26,881 bases of DNA from a virus. The translations under genes and the position numbers were made by a program. The DNA lies in IMG/VR virus record IMGVR_UViG_3300020470_000175, positions 1-26,881 of that record; one strand, 5' to 3'. Shown one piece after another: positions 20,859 through 26,382 of this stretch (positions are counted from its first letter, which is position 1; every line of letters starts with the position of its first letter). The notes under the pieces were generated by a model. It was not told the DNA's origin, made no database searches, and saw only the letters and a list, made by a program, of their open reading frames with translations.

Positions 20859-21198
20859 TAACTTTTTTTCTGCCAGGTTTTCGCTCGGCATGATACTTCC
20901 AAGCGTCCTCTAGAATGGAGTAAAGATAATCCTTTATCTTTCTTGCTTTTGGTTTAGGGATGTGTCCATAAGACTCCCTAAGTTGTGCATCACCACCCTT
21001 GATATAACCTTCCAACTCTAGCACAGCGTTACTAAGTTCTGCTGCTACAGAGGACTCAATGAAGTCATTAACTTCTCTTCGTGTCCATTTTTGTGCTTTT
21101 AAATACGGATACATCTTGAATAGAAATCTCTGATTGACCATCGCTTCGTCTAGTGCTCTGTCTACGAGAGTATACAATTCTTCAGTATTCTTTTGCAT
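20851..21198 (-). CDS. Conserved hypothetical protein, 115 aa
   Basis: I take ATG 21198, which overlaps the glutaredoxin stop as TAATG; the frame extends further but through the 3' end of that gene. The protein (MQKNTEELYTLVDRALDEAM onward) is almost all helical. It contains FLFKMYPYLKAQKWTRREVN, the ELSNAVLELEGYIKGGDAQL segment, and a basic end (KPKARKIKDYLYSIL, then AERKPGRKKVTK). No catalytic motif or membrane helix is present. The basic tail could contact DNA or RNA. I do not recognise the family. Confidence 0.6.
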   Translation of the reverse strand: MQKNTEELYTLVDRALDEAMVNQRFLFKMYPYLKAQKWTRREVNDFIESSVAAELSNAVLELEGYIKGGDAQLRESYGHIPKPKARKIKDYLYSILEDAWKYHAERKPGRKKVTK

Positions 21199-21446
21199 TA
21201 CAGGTAGGTGTTTTCTCTTAAGTATTTTACAGTTTCGGTGCAACCACCCATTTTATGTCCAGAGATTATTACTTGGGGGAAGGTTGCTCCTCTGCCAAAC
21301 TCACTATAGAATTGCTCTCTGGTGAAGTTTGAGTTGAGCTTATACTCAGCATACACCCAACCCTTTGATTTGTAAACCTCTTTAATTTTTGTGCAGTAAG
21401 GGCAACCGTCTCTGGTATAGATTGCTGTATTTCCTGGTGTCTTCAT
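21198..21446 (-). CDS. Glutaredoxin (NrdC-like)
   Basis: An 82-aa protein. It has the CPYC active site (C15-P-Y-C18), the cis-proline TFPQV (P57) and the GG-C-T-E motif (MGGCTETVKYL) of glutaredoxins, in the normal spacing and length. It would reduce disulfides such as that of ribonucleotide reductase using glutathione, in support of dNTP supply, in keeping with the nearby thyX. It begins just downstream of the terminator of the barrel-like gene, so it must either receive read-through or have its own promoter; I see no clear promoter in the 9 nt between the T-run and the start. Confidence 0.9.
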   Translation of the reverse strand: MKTPGNTAIYTRDGCPYCTKIKEVYKSKGWVYAEYKLNSNFTREQFYSEFGRGATFPQVIISGHKMGGCTETVKYLRENTYL

Positions 21447-21455
21447 TGAAAAATT

Positions 21456-21485
21456 GAAAAAGAAAAGGAGGGTGTAATACCCTCC
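21456..21485 (-). terminator. Rho-independent terminator after the barrel-like gene
   Basis: On the minus strand GGAGGG-TATTACA-CCCTCC forms a 6-bp GC-rich stem with a 7-nt loop, followed by TTTTCTTTTTC. It lies 22 nt after the stop codon of the barrel-like gene. Form and position are convincing. Confidence 0.85.
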
Positions 21486-21507
21486 ATGTTATTACATTCT
21501 TATATAG

Positions 21508-21864
21508 TTAGAATGTGTATTTTGTTCCTAACTTAACACCGTATGCGTTATCAGCAGCGTCTGCTGTCTGTAGAGAAAACTCTCCGTATACTCCAACTGC
21601 TTCGGTTACGTCAACAGAACCACCAAGATATCCAATGAAGTCTGTTGAAGACTCTCCACCGTCAGGTGCAGTTGTGATAGGACCACCAGAAACATACCAG
21701 TTGTCTCCTTCGTATCCAACCTGTAATTCTGTGGTTGTTCCTGTGTAGTTGCTACCAGTTAAAGATGAGTTTACTTCTACGTTGACATAAGGACCTGCAA
21801 AAGCAGCACCAGATGCAAGAAGTGGAGTGGCAGCTAGAGCTGCTAAAGTAGATTTAATAGTCAT
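21508..21864 (-). CDS. Secreted outer-membrane beta-barrel-like (porin-like) protein
   Basis: A 118-aa protein from ATG 21864; an upstream TTG (21885) would only add seven residues. Residues 1-23 are a signal peptide (MTIKSTLAALAATPLLASGA then AFA), with a GPYVNVEVN start of the mature chain. The mature part alternates polar and hydrophobic residues in short strands (YVNVEVNSSLT, TELQVGYEGDNWYVSGGP, DFIGYLGGSVDVTEAVGVYG, EFSLQT, NAYGVKLGTKYTF). It ends in Phe, as outer-membrane barrel proteins do for BAM recognition. At about 95 mature residues it would form only 6-8 strands, so it may be a small barrel, an oligomer or a fragment. It has its own promoter, structured leader and terminator. It probably changes the host envelope during infection; that is inference. 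Confidence 0.7.
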   Translation of the reverse strand: MTIKSTLAALAATPLLASGAAFAGPYVNVEVNSSLTGSNYTGTTTELQVGYEGDNWYVSGGPITTAPDGGESSTDFIGYLGGSVDVTEAVGVYGEFSLQTADAADNAYGVKLGTKYTF

Positions 21865-21892
21865 AATAGATTTAATTTCTCGCAAGAAAAAT

Positions 21893-21947
21893 CCTGCGGA
21901 TGTTCTCTGACTCTCTCGACATGAGAGTCTTTTACATGCGACGCAGG
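21893..21947 (-). promoter_or_regulatory. Structured 5' leader of the barrel-like gene
   Basis: The leader between the promoter and ATG 21864 is about 110 nt. On the minus strand CCTGCG (21942-21947) pairs with CGCAGG (21893-21898), and inside them GACTCTC pairs with GAGAGTC (21909-21915 and 21923-21929) around a 7-nt loop. ATGT and ACAT can extend the outer stem with an internal loop. This could protect the mRNA, control ribosome access or be a small regulatory RNA element. The Shine-Dalgarno is weak. I do not recognise a riboswitch class. Confidence 0.55.
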
Positions 21948-21981
21948 GGCACGATAGTTTCGATTCCTTTGTAACAATGGT

Positions 21982-22012
21982 TATTTATAGCAGAAAAAAG
22001 TCTAGTTGTCAA
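21982..22012 (-). promoter_or_regulatory. Strong promoter: TTGACA-17-TATAAA(TA)
   Basis: On the minus strand TTGACA (22007-22012) is followed after exactly 17 nt by TATAAA (21984-21989), which extends to TATAAATA (21982-21989). So a perfect sigma70-type -35 with a good -10 coincides with a T4 late box. It overlaps the last codons of the 64-aa ORF and drives the barrel-like gene. Confidence 0.8.
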
Positions 22013-22204: not shown

Positions 22205-22558
22205 CTAGGATTTTTTACTGTCCTTACTAATTATATCACGAATCGCTGACATATCGTGGTCGGTTAGTACGCTTTCATCATTGTCACCCTCTTCACCACG
22301 TGGGTCTTCGACAGGTGTGAGTTGCTTACTTACCCTTCCCAAGTCCTCTTGGAGGTCTGCCATGTAGTCGGTAGGTTTAGCATCCATACTATGCACTACT
22401 GAAAGATTACTCCTCCAATACTTCTGCATCTTCTTCATCATCTTTTTCTTACCCTTAGGGTCGTCTTTATATTTCTCGATGATTTTACGGAGTTGTCTTA
22501 ACTCTCGAGATGATTTTTCGAGTGACCTTTCGGCTGCACTCTTTCCAAATCCTGCCAT
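22205..22558 (-). CDS. Hypothetical charged helical protein, 117 aa
   Basis: A 117-aa protein, MAGFGKSAAERSLEKSSREL onward. The first 55 residues are strongly Lys/Arg/Glu-rich with heptad-like spacing (RQLRKIIEKYKDDPKGKKKM) and look like a coiled coil. A hinge and acidic tail follow (DPRGEEGDNDESVLTDHDMS). The start forms TAATG with the stop of the 1274-aa structural protein, so it may be a chaperone or partner of that protein. This is inference from coupling only. Confidence 0.6.
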   Translation of the reverse strand: MAGFGKSAAERSLEKSSRELRQLRKIIEKYKDDPKGKKKMMKKMQKYWRSNLSVVHSMDAKPTDYMADLQEDLGRVSKQLTPVEDPRGEEGDNDESVLTDHDMSAIRDIISKDSKKS

Positions 22559-25500
22559 TAATCTACGTCGTTGATAATTAGTTTGAATCTGACACGATAA
22601 TTCTTTCGGTCAGTAGTATAATACCATATCGGAGAGTCAATATTATGTGACTCCTGATATATGGCTTCCTTAGAGTATCTATCAACACTCTTCTTCTCCT
22701 CGTAATATGCGAGGAGGTTTGACTCAGGGTGTTGGAAACCAGTCCTGTAGTCAGGGAAGTATGGTGACCTGTTAGTCTTCTCTCCTTCTCTGCTTCTAAC
22801 AGGAGGCCAGAAGAGGTCAAACTCCATACCACTATTGTAACCAGTGCCCCTATCAATAACATCCATAACTCGGATGAGACAATTCCAATAGTAATTGCTA
22901 GATGATACACCTCTGTCAGCTGATGTTGCCATCAGTGAATAGAATGTAAAACTTACTCTAACCTTAGCAGGAGTCGCAGTTAACTGTGAGTCTTCTTCTA
23001 TGCCACCAGTAAGTAGGTAGTCATGGACAAATGTAATAGGACTCTGCCAAGGATTATTATGCCATGATTGTGCAATAATATTCTTATAGTTTATATCAAC
23101 TCCTTGAAATTGTCCACCCACCTTTTCTAGTCCTGCATTCACCATGTGCCATGGCAGTGCACCACGTGCTGCTGTGAATGGTTTCTTCTCTCCTAATATA
23201 TCTTGAGTTGCCTGTGCTATCTGGTCGTATGCATATTGTGGGTGAAAGTTTAGTGTGGTGACTAGATGCTCTTCTAATAAGTGGTTGTAGTTGCCTGTGA
23301 ATGCAGCAAGAATATCCTCTGGTCTCTGCACATCACTTGATTGATACCCATCAACACCTTCGGGTAGCATACCAGTATCAATATATCCATCAAAGTTATT
23401 TGGCATCCATATCATATCAACGTTAGTGCCTCTGGCATCAGAGTTATTCTTATTGCCAGGATGATTTGCAACTGTCTGTGATAACACAGATGGCATTGGC
23501 ACTGCTGCATTGTTAGACCATACCTGTGTGGCACTGTAACCATTAGGTGAGTCTGATGCTGTGATGTGATAGGAGTCAGTCTTATATGACCCTGCCATCC
23601 ACTCAAACAAACCTTTGTTGCTTGGAGCATACTGCATTGCCAAACCTTTTACTCTACCGTCAGTAGAATTACCTGTCCTATTAAGCATTGGAGCACCAGT
23701 TGTCTCCCCTGCTTTATCATCTTGGTTGATAGTGACTAGGTTAATTGTAAACTGGCCATCATAATTACCTTCTGTCGAATTAAATAGTGAGATAGCGGGA
23801 GCGATAGACGAATTAGGTCCTCCAGATATCAACTCTGGCACTTCAAAAGTCAAGGTGTCACCGTTGGTTACAGTGAATTCAGGTACTACAACGTCACCTA
23901 TGGGTGGCCAATACTGTGCTTCCCATATCTGCTCGTAAAATGTTACAGAATTCTTCTTGACTCGTATCTTAAATTTTGTACACTCTCCTGTTAGTCCACC
24001 AAGGATACCACCACCAGATACAAATGCTAGTGTCGATGAGGAAAGCATCTCGATAGTCTGTGACTGATGCAATACGTTGGTGTATGACCCTAAACATGTG
24101 CCACACTCATAGTCATTACCATTGCCATCTACAGTAACAACCATAGACCCACAGTCATTTCTCTGCACGATTACATCTTGGAAACCTTTTTTGGATGACC
24201 TACTATCACATGGCACATTCTCTCGCACAGTCTTCATAATCTTAGGAGGTGCTGCATTCTCATACACATATCCCATGACACCATCAAACGTAGGCTCTCC
24301 TTCCCACCACTCTACCTTGTGGTAAAACTTTAGGTCATCATAATCATCGTCACCATTCAATAAGTCTTCCCAGAATTGATGTCCACTACCTGACCACTTG
24401 GTCATGTCTTTGTCACCAGGATTCCATCTATTATCTGAGAAGAATATGTAGTTACTCTGTGAGGATGATATACCTGTGCCACGATACCCATCATTCAATG
24501 CTTCAAAGTCTATCTGTTGCCCTCTACTTAACGACTGGACTCCTGCACCATTAGGTATCATAAAGAAACCCATCGTGCCACCCTTATACTGCTCTAAGTA
24601 TTGAGTGCTGATAGTAATAGACTCTTCATTCTTATCTGACTTTGACTCTGGGACAACAACATACCCTCTGACAGGTTGATTTTCATTTGCCATATAAAAA
24701 CCAAGACTATTATTATATCCTGCAGACCCATGCTCACAGTCAATAATAATCCTTAGATTCTGTCTAGGGTTTCTTGGTATTCTATATGAGTTTCTCTTCT
24801 CGAATCTTTGTGGAGGTTGCTCTGGTAATTCAGCATCAATAGATGCCATGTGGTCAAACTCAGTAGATTTAAACTGACGCACAAGTGCTTGGACTTTATC
24901 ATTCTTTCTTCTCTTATATCCTATAGACATATCTTGTCTAAGGAATGCATGTCCTATCACCATCTGGAATACGTATCCATTGTCATTAAGATACTGTCTC
25001 TCTCCATTACCAGGTCCGTCAGGTGCACCTGGATTTGTTGTTAGCATACTATCTGTATTGCTAGAAGAATAGAAACTATAAATCGGGACTGTCTTACCTT
25101 GTATCGGCTCTTTCAATGTATAGAAAACTGGTTGACTCTGAGCAAGTGAGTATCCATTAGGAGAGGTAGACTCATTTGTGTAGAGGTGGTCTCCATCTGT
25201 CTGTCCTATGACCTCGAAGTCTAAGTATGCTGTATTGTTTCCTACGTTAAAATTATATGTCCATGTCGTGCCAATAGGTGCGTTGCCTGTCCAACTACTA
25301 ATCCACCACTCACTATCCCAGTCGTTACCATCATCAATAGGAGTAACACTTACGTTTACTGTGATACCACTGTTGCTAGTTGTAAATGATTGTGTTGTGC
25401 TATTGGAAAATATCTGTGCTCCACCCTCGTTGAATACTTTTCTGTTTGTCCACTGACCATACTGGTCTGTAGTCTGGACTGTCCCTGCCCACATGCCATT

Positions 25501-26382
25501 CTGATTCCTATGATTCATCCTGACATTGATTGCACCTGTGTCGATACGATGCTCATAGACAGGCAGTCTATCAGGGAAGCAATTCTTAACACACACCTGA
25601 CCCTTATTGGATGACCAACCATCCATTGTATGTGCCTCACAGTCCTGTTTAGGGGGTGTCCAGTTGCCTCCCATGTATGGACGCATCATACACTCTGTTG
25701 CTTCTCTCACACACCTTTCCCATTTCAAATCGACAGGCATGTCAGCATCACTACAGTAATATAATACTCCAGTCTTAACGTGTTGATATACTCCCTTCTC
25801 TATCTGATTAAGTAAACCTCTAGCATCTAAGTCTGCTACTTCTAAACAATCATTCTTTGGTTTACCTATCGTTACCCATGTCTTTCCTGTTGGAGGACTT
25901 GGTGGTAAAACTGTGATGTCACCTGTGAAATCAAATTGATTACCAATGAGAGGATTAATGAAATCAATTATCTCTCTCATGTCTACATTCAATGCACCAC
26001 TATTAACTACCTCAGGTTTAAACTCTGTGAAAGGTGTTAGGTCTAAGTCAGGATAACATCTATTAACAAGTTGTTGAATGACTTGGTTAGGTGATGGCTC
26101 TGGTGTGACAGGTGGAGGTGGTATCCTCTGAGCAACATTTGCTTGGTCAAGGACGTTAGGTTGATTAGGTATGGCAGTGTCTGAATAACAACGACCAACT
26201 AACTCTCTTATAACAGTAGCACCACTAGGAGGCACAACGCTTTGACCCACTGGTGCTTGTGGGGATAACGGTCCTGAAGACGCTGCTGACCTTACATTTT
26301 CTTGGTCTAAGTTAGACCTTTGATTGACAATGAGACCACCATAACATCTAGCGACTATATCTCTTATACGTTGCGAGGACAT
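22558..26382 (-). CDS. Large virion structural/adhesin-like protein with DUF4114-type domain
   Basis: A 1274-aa protein. Three N-terminal repeats of I-R/Q-x-L/I-V-x-R-C-Y occur at about residues 6-14, 58-66 and 101-109, separated by Pro-rich linkers. A Cys-rich segment (about 178-275) follows, then a strand-rich region. A short segment at about 430-480 (VPIYSFYSSSNTDSMLTTNP to GYVFQMVIGHAF) is like the FY-x-x-x-T-x-D-x-x-x-T-T repeats of DUF5648-like lectins. Residues about 540-690 read as DUF4114: AGYNNSLGFYM, GTMGFFMIPNGAG, YIFFSDNRWNPGD, and the acidic WEDLLNGDDDYDDLKFYHKV calcium-loop-like motif. The rest is rich in Asn, Gly, Ser and aromatics. It is probably a tail fibre, whisker or capsid-decoration protein for host contact. 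Large proteins of this type in cyanophages are annotated as virion structural or VrlC-like; I cannot verify that name. Confidence 0.7.
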   Translation of the reverse strand: MSSQRIRDIVARCYGGLIVNQRSNLDQENVRSAASSGPLSPQAPVGQSVVPPSGATVIRELVGRCYSDTAIPNQPNVLDQANVAQRIPPPPVTPEPSPNQVIQQLVNRCYPDLDLTPFTEFKPEVVNSGALNVDMREIIDFINPLIGNQFDFTGDITVLPPSPPTGKTWVTIGKPKNDCLEVADLDARGLLNQIEKGVYQHVKTGVLYYCSDADMPVDLKWERCVREATECMMRPYMGGNWTPPKQDCEAHTMDGWSSNKGQVCVKNCFPDRLPVYEHRIDTGAINVRMNHRNQNGMWAGTVQTTDQYGQWTNRKVFNEGGAQIFSNSTTQSFTTSNSGITVNVSVTPIDDGNDWDSEWWISSWTGNAPIGTTWTYNFNVGNNTAYLDFEVIGQTDGDHLYTNESTSPNGYSLAQSQPVFYTLKEPIQGKTVPIYSFYSSSNTDSMLTTNPGAPDGPGNGERQYLNDNGYVFQMVIGHAFLRQDMSIGYKRRKNDKVQALVRQFKSTEFDHMASIDAELPEQPPQRFEKRNSYRIPRNPRQNLRIIIDCEHGSAGYNNSLGFYMANENQPVRGYVVVPESKSDKNEESITISTQYLEQYKGGTMGFFMIPNGAGVQSLSRGQQIDFEALNDGYRGTGISSSQSNYIFFSDNRWNPGDKDMTKWSGSGHQFWEDLLNGDDDYDDLKFYHKVEWWEGEPTFDGVMGYVYENAAPPKIMKTVRENVPCDSRSSKKGFQDVIVQRNDCGSMVVTVDGNGNDYECGTCLGSYTNVLHQSQTIEMLSSSTLAFVSGGGILGGLTGECTKFKIRVKKNSVTFYEQIWEAQYWPPIGDVVVPEFTVTNGDTLTFEVPELISGGPNSSIAPAISLFNSTEGNYDGQFTINLVTINQDDKAGETTGAPMLNRTGNSTDGRVKGLAMQYAPSNKGLFEWMAGSYKTDSYHITASDSPNGYSATQVWSNNAAVPMPSVLSQTVANHPGNKNNSDARGTNVDMIWMPNNFDGYIDTGMLPEGVDGYQSSDVQRPEDILAAFTGNYNHLLEEHLVTTLNFHPQYAYDQIAQATQDILGEKKPFTAARGALPWHMVNAGLEKVGGQFQGVDINYKNIIAQSWHNNPWQSPITFVHDYLLTGGIEEDSQLTATPAKVRVSFTFYSLMATSADRGVSSSNYYWNCLIRVMDVIDRGTGYNSGMEFDLFWPPVRSREGEKTNRSPYFPDYRTGFQHPESNLLAYYEEKKSVDRYSKEAIYQESHNIDSPIWYYTTDRKNYRVRFKLIINDVD

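Follow-up and report, generated by a model that had tools for sequence, protein, structure and literature searches.

The locus described here raises two questions: why a T4-like cyanophage should surround one small gene with expression signals of its own, and what the product of that gene might do in the infected cell. The gene lies on the minus strand of a contig of 26,881 bases (the window, by which we mean the whole stretch analysed), and the preliminary description had proposed a self-contained cassette of promoter, leader, gene and terminator for it. All of these features could be located on the sequence (Table 1) and are backed by the statistics of relatives. The reading that we favour, at slightly better than even probability, is a half-length outer-membrane beta-barrel from a conserved cyanophage cassette, placed behind a dedicated structured RNA leader; the leader is the new part of the finding, and the Phage_OMP protein is a known family.

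Table 1. Elements of the cassette and the gene following it, in window coordinates.
Feature	Position	Strand	Basis
-35 box TTGACA	22007..22012	-	Sequence
TATAAATA, serving both as -10 box (TATAAA) and as T4-like late-promoter motif	21982..21989	-	Sequence
5' leader, about 112 nt, from the predicted start at 21976 to the base before the ATG	21865..21976	-	Promoter geometry; kept in relatives
5' portion of the leader, class A (AGGAAUCGAAACUAUCGUGCCCCUGCGU), including segment 1 CCUGCG at 21947-21942	21941..21968	-	Alignment A1
Hairpin 1, GACUCUC-[AUGUCGA]-GAGAGUC	21909..21929	-	Sequence, covariation
CAUC (21902-21899) and hairpin 2, CGCAGG (21898-21893)-AUUUUU-CUUGCG (21886-21881)	21881..21902	-	Covariation
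Phage_OMP gene, 118 aa (PF24653, phrog_417)	21508..21864	-	ORF, profile match, AlphaFold2 model
Intrinsic terminator, GGAGGGTATTACACCCTCC then TTTTCTTTTT	21467..21485	-	Sequence
Next gene, glutaredoxin (NrdC-like), PF00462, outside the cassette	21198..21446	-	Pfam

Promoter, terminator and gene neighbourhood

The consensus promoter with 17-nt spacing that had been claimed for this gene is present as TTGACA-17-TATAAATA (22012-22007 and 21989-21982). The upstream gene ends at 22009, so that its stop codon (22011-22009) falls inside the -35 box, and the site was overlooked by a consensus scanner because the scanner requires T as the last base of the -10 box. The T4-like late promoter motif has been described before (PMC2984593); from its geometry, in which TATAAATA occupies about -13 to -6 and here lies at 21989-21982, transcription is predicted to start at about 21976. 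The window promoter can be read as an early sigma-70 site fused with this late motif. Among 138 distinct leader-bearing relatives a sigma-70-like site (TTGAC-type -35 box, 15-19 nt spacing) was found in 89, against 1.8% in shuffles, and the exact NATAAATA in 81, against 3.8%, these being single-motif rates from our own shuffles, which are single-base shuffles; both motifs occur in 42 relatives and at least one in 128.

In S-PM2 the middle mode of expression has been ascribed to early and late promoters that overlap (PMC2984593). The middle cluster of P-HM2 contains the auxiliary genes, of which cp12 and talC rank among those most highly expressed (PMC5082946), and in its sister phage P-HM1 talC stands directly upstream of the Phage_OMP gene. 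The mixture of early and late elements suggests expression from middle through late infection, and the separate timing put forward in the preliminary description is plausible in view of the two fused motifs.

A strong terminator had likewise been claimed, and it is found at 21485-21467; in 131 of the 138 relatives a terminator follows within 80 nt of the stop codon, as against 1% in shuffles. Comparison with these relatives shows promoter, leader, gene and terminator kept together as a single conserved unit. The order of genes in the window (OMP, nrdC, ..., thymidylate synthase, phoH) is that of Prochlorococcus phage P-HM1, and the glutaredoxin gene is a conserved neighbour, nrdC being downstream of the Phage_OMP gene in P-HM1 and S-TIM4. 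In several phages (L044, L082, L105, L119) the cassette follows closely on the ends of tRNA genes, which suggests an insertion hot spot. Elsewhere in the window, positions 22558-26382 (minus strand) encode a 1274-aa protein with a weak DUF4114 match, assigned to PHROG 26996 (function unassigned) and probably a large structural protein.

Structure, distribution and subtypes of the leader RNA

The folding energy of the window leader alone is not significant (z -1.41; 19 of 200 shuffles fold as well), and the structure is established by covariation. Since the initial scan for leaders used a sequence pattern, which biases hairpin conservation, 240 further loci were gathered by protein similarity. 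A hairpin made of ATC, six bases and, after a gap of 1-17 nt, their perfect complement, lying 8-40 nt from the ATG, was present in 152 of the 205 distinct upstream regions anchored in this way, against 1.75 expected in shuffles. In the typical layout a hairpin with a GUCGA loop is followed, after CAUC, by a second one that shows strong compensatory change and whose arms occur as CGCAGG/UCUGCG, UGCGGG/UCCGCA, UGUGGG/UCCACA, CGUAGG/UCUACG, UGCUGG/UCAGCA and other covarying versions.

Covariation was scored on 85 leaders picked only by the primary-sequence anchor CATC[CT]G. In these, 98.6% of the cells of hairpin 2 are paired, with two-sided changes at four of its six pairs and at 10 of the 12 pairs of both helices together. 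The covariation score over both hairpins is 0.480, compared with 0.236 +/- 0.010 when shuffled and at most 0.234 when slid; the score of alignment A4, which was chosen for pairing, is biased upward. Hairpin 1 aligns less well than hairpin 2 (81% of cells), partly because its loop differs in length between subtypes; its stem varies and the loop GUCG(A/G) is conserved. The preliminary description was close on the length of the leader (about 112 nt) and correct on the presence of two stems, which it took to be nested (21947-21942 with 21898-21893), whereas covariation backs a fold in which two hairpins (21929-21909 and 21898-21881) stand in tandem. The nested helix competes with this fold and differs little from it in energy (-26.0 kcal/mol, against -25.3 kcal/mol with hairpin 2).

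A covariance model (R1) built from 19 class-B leaders, a subtype set out below, matches the window copy at 21931-21878 (19.2 bits, E 0.001) and also the leaders of P-HM1, P-SSM2 gene 246 and S-TIM4 ORF224. The element was found in 14 of 16 phage records, with one copy per genome in nearly all 14, and in the pattern-scan set the downstream ORF was Phage_OMP in 117 of 117 readable cases (nine more had no readable ORF). A general regulon was considered and rejected, the element being present once per genome and beside the OMP gene at every site where the adjacent gene was inspected. Among 251 host-family genomes it occurred only in one phage contig, under strict filters that can lose weak matches. 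Rfam 15, which includes wcaG, manA and PhotoRC-II, gave no match above the gathering threshold for the element in the window or in related loci, and no relevant family even at E <= 10 or E <= 1; a wcaG RNA was detected elsewhere on one contig that also has the leader element. The cyanophage RNAs in the literature searched, which took in few subscription papers, are wcaG, manA, PhotoRC-II, CfrI and the glutamine riboswitch, and the present element is not described there. Comparison shows the leader to be a conserved RNA family tied to Phage_OMP genes.

The leaders fall into two classes. Those of class A (the window, P-HM1, P-SSM2) begin with a conserved CGAAA...AUCGU hairpin followed by CCCUGCG, a segment that can pair with CGCAGGG of hairpin 2, so that two mutually exclusive folds are possible, within about 4-5 kcal/mol of each other in most leaders. 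Complementarity to the leader's own partner exceeds that to permuted partners (p = 0.009 over 31 distinct pairs, uncorrected for relatedness, which inflates statistics of this kind). In some leaders all three segments covary (CCCUACG/CGUAGGG/CUUACG), and in some the alternative helix is broken. In class B (e.g. S-TIM4) the 5' hairpin is a different one (CCUCAAYUACUCG) and the competing segment is absent, which confines a possible switch to class A and means that it is not general. In the window's own type of leader the second, mutually exclusive and near-isoenergetic pairing could let the leader act as a switch, a role that is possible but unproven. Two other readings of the class-A leader were set aside: a leader peptide (GUG CCC CUG CGU CGC AUG UAA) was rejected by eye, as neither start codon nor frame is conserved, and a terminator/anti-terminator arrangement (CGCAGG, then a U-run) is not general, the U-run being absent from class B and from some class-A leaders.

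Hairpin 2 lies just upstream of the ribosome-binding region, from which we infer that it sets translation and/or mRNA stability; the leader may in this way control the amount of Phage_OMP protein made. A serious alternative, which we rate somewhat short of even, is that the leader acts only passively, stabilising the 5' end and enhancing translation, its fixed hairpins shielding the mRNA from host RNase and keeping the start region open with no sensing involved, the barrel remaining as proposed. Such a role would fit the covariation of hairpin 2 around a loop that is not conserved, the many class-B leaders that leave the downstream GAGG ribosome-binding sequence single-stranded and the absence of the competing helix from class B, and the restriction to one gene per genome suggests expression strength rather than a regulon. 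On the other hand, the GUCG loop, the CAUC spacer and the class-A CGAAA...AUCGU are conserved in sequence beyond what a stabiliser needs, and the class-A competing helix fits its own partner better than permuted ones. At the other extreme stands a riboswitch-like class, in which a leader of two folds would sense a nutrient, a metal or a host factor and meter a channel of two identical half-barrels, the host barrel being one duplicated chain; the leader does show the conservation and covarying structure, ahead of a single gene class, that are looked for in a riboswitch, and we nevertheless regard this fuller proposal as doubtful.

Predicted half-length barrel and its host homologues

The window protein matches Pfam PF24653 Phage_OMP with 139.2 bits (cut-off 27), residues 3-118 aligning to positions 2-122 of the 122-position profile. 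The family, also listed as PHROG 417 (phrog_417), DUF680, PhCOG173 and T4-GC 241, has relatives in 469 phage records, all of cyanophages or marine phages, and distant homologues in hosts; one phage relative carries the annotation oligogalacturonate-specific porin. The description of a signal-peptide protein ending in Phe proved accurate: residues 1-23 form a signal peptide with an Ala-X-Ala-type cleavage site (MTIKSTLAALAATPLLASGAAFA|GPY, i.e. ...AFA|GPY), judged by eye and conserved in the family, and the chain ends in KLGTKYTF. This terminus follows the pattern polar-x-Gly-x-x-aromatic-x-aromatic (K111-L-G113-T-K-Y116-T-F118), a textbook BAM signal, with K111 and G113 near-invariant and F118 invariant in the family.

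An AlphaFold2 model based on 45 family members has six strands (24-36, 39-52, 56-67, 73-85, 90-99 and 107-116) whose residues alternate between polar and hydrophobic, with a mean pLDDT of 83.8, 83-95 in the strand blocks and about 90-95 over most strands. By known precedent a single chain needs eight or more strands to close into a membrane barrel, eight being the number in the smallest barrels known, and the six of the monomer model are too few. Outer-membrane barrels headed the fold search, with the N-terminal barrel of OprF at Z 8.9 (rmsd 4.5) and a designed barrel at Z 8.0, although Z values of 8-9 are only middling and avidin and MS2/RNA-phage coat folds also reach 6-7. The tightest superpositions were on parts of 12-stranded barrels, namely BrkA (91 residues, 2.6 A), NalP (101 residues, 2.6 A) and NanC (87 residues, 2.5 A). 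Sequence searches of solved structures returned weak matches only, the best two being autotransporter barrels (E 0.19-0.32). An envelope protein with a barrel-like fold, as first described, agrees with the six strands, the leading matches and the BAM-type terminus, with the qualification that the chain is half the size of the best-fitting known barrels.

The same evidence bears on an improbable alternative, a soluble, solute-binding beta protein of the periplasm whose sheet, closed or open, would be avidin-like and which would form no membrane channel. Avidin chains do align over 77-88 residues (Z 6.4-7.2), and PstS, itself a periplasmic binder, neighbours the paralogues; against it stand the alternating strands, the C-terminal Phe and the signal containing it, and both Pfam and viral-structure entries annotate an outer-membrane barrel.

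The host homologues suggest how the half-barrel may be closed. Across 251 host-family genomes PF24653 matches full-length ORFs (about 260-360 aa), several of them twice in tandem. In four proteins of about 260 aa, repeat 1 matches repeat 2 with prob 98.8, E 5e-17 and 34% identity, and the phage family matches each host repeat with prob about 94 and E about 1e-7. By these alignments the two-repeat host protein is two copies of the phage unit. At six strands per unit, the economical reading is a barrel of 12 strands in the host and a homodimer in the phage. In the mechanism that we favour, the secreted six-strand protein with its predicted BAM-type signal would be inserted in the host outer membrane, where two half-barrels probably dimerise into a channel of about 12 strands, the halves that the host homologues hold in one chain.

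The picocyanobacterial host proteins (L493, L495, L479-L485; 260-360 aa, one or two Phage_OMP units) include some that are His-rich. At one host locus (G256) the homologues adjoin genes for ZnuA, an ABC-3 permease and an ABC ATPase, and at another (G046) genes of the FUR family, MerR and CobW; of the three loci inspected these two show such zinc-uptake or FUR/CobW neighbours, and G029 does not. The host proteins look like outer-membrane metal channels. A broken phage OMP gene with in-frame stops on a 2.4-Mb host contig (L486, G137:C1:132523-132861) is apparently a relic of phage DNA.

Functional context and comparison with known systems

P-SSM2 carries both gene 246, which has the leader, and a leaderless paralogue, gene 247 (PSSM2_247), 10 bp before pstS. 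Leaderless paralogues lie 2-11 bp upstream of pstS in five phages (P-SSM2, P-SSM7, S-SSM7, S-SSM5 and Bellamy), and in P-SSM2, P-SSM7 and S-SSM5 a Pho box CTTA-N7-CTTA, called by the published cyanobacterial consensus, precedes the paralogue; Bellamy has a leader-type copy just upstream of its paralogue-pstS pair. The five paralogue-pstS loci are L465:3549-4957, L488, L489, L490 and L492. A separate subfamily (L026-L078; MKSII/MKKII/MKILA) has no leader and sits in tight gene runs, often with an hli-like gene directly after, and podovirus P-SSP3 (L491:1501-1860) has a Phage_OMP gene between hli and psbA.

The pstS-adjacent paralogues and the zinc/FUR-adjacent host homologues together favour an outer-membrane nutrient channel, which would raise permeability to a scarce nutrient during infection. 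The altered nutrient uptake suggested in the preliminary description is supported by context, that is, by the neighbours of paralogues and homologues (pstS; znuABC and FUR-family genes), the window copy's own conserved neighbour being glutaredoxin. In S-TIM4 the leader-bearing ORF224 is lost only during evolution in rich medium with Synechococcus WH8102 as host (13 mutations, in about 100% of phages; PMC6224464). The gene is therefore dispensable under those conditions and can carry a cost, which would be expected if it encodes a channel or permeability factor.

Blocking of superinfection and masking of receptors, both suggested earlier for this protein, found no support in our analysis. We consider it improbable that the protein is such an exclusion or masking factor at the cell surface, although it is a small predicted surface barrel and such roles are known from other phages. 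The loss on a single host (S-TIM4 on WH8102, PMC6224464) could fit a host-specific interaction, but no similarity to known exclusion proteins was found in Pfam or PHROGs, and the paralogues beside pstS, three of them with Pho boxes, and the host homologues beside zinc uptake genes point elsewhere. Least probable of all is an association with the virion in place of the infected cell's membrane, for which evidence is contradictory: the DUF680 protein S-SZBM1_90 was among virion proteins by LC-MS (PMC9146016), which carry-over of host membrane would explain, whereas the S-TIM4 protein was not particle-associated (PMC6224464), and the signal peptide and BAM-type C-terminus argue against it.

Cyanophages of Prochlorococcus and Synechococcus shape the flow of carbon and phosphorus in the ocean, and if many of them install a leader-controlled outer-membrane channel, uptake by infected cells would be partly set by the phage. 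The leader RNA is an unannotated marker, easily scored at one per genome, and as a regulator it is open to direct test; the phage half-barrel and the two-repeat host protein offer a test of barrel evolution by duplication.

With the PF24653/PHROG 417/DUF680/PhCOG173/T4-GC 241 family as described, the window protein shares family membership, cyanophage origin, signal peptide and barrel-like domain, and the family adjoins nrdC in P-HM1, S-TIM4 and S-SZBM1. The family description lacks the structured leader, the autonomous cassette and the link between the half-barrel and host proteins with two repeats, none of which was found for Phage_OMP in the literature searched. The wcaG (RF01761), manA (RF01745) and PhotoRC-II (RF01717) RNAs are likewise structured RNAs of T4-like cyanophages, manA and wcaG probably lying in the 5' UTRs of genes for metabolism (PMC2864571), but they differ from the leader in structure and target gene and have no covariance-model match with it. 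The KdgM/NanC-type outer-membrane channels resemble the six-strand model in the part of NanC that superposes on it, although they are single 12-strand chains with no sequence relation shown to Phage_OMP. PSSM2_247 and its relatives, DUF680 proteins encoded upstream of pstS, belong to the same family, are also phage-encoded and probably have the same membrane role; they differ in standing directly before pstS and in having no RNA leader, with a Pho box in its place in P-SSM2, P-SSM7 and S-SSM5.
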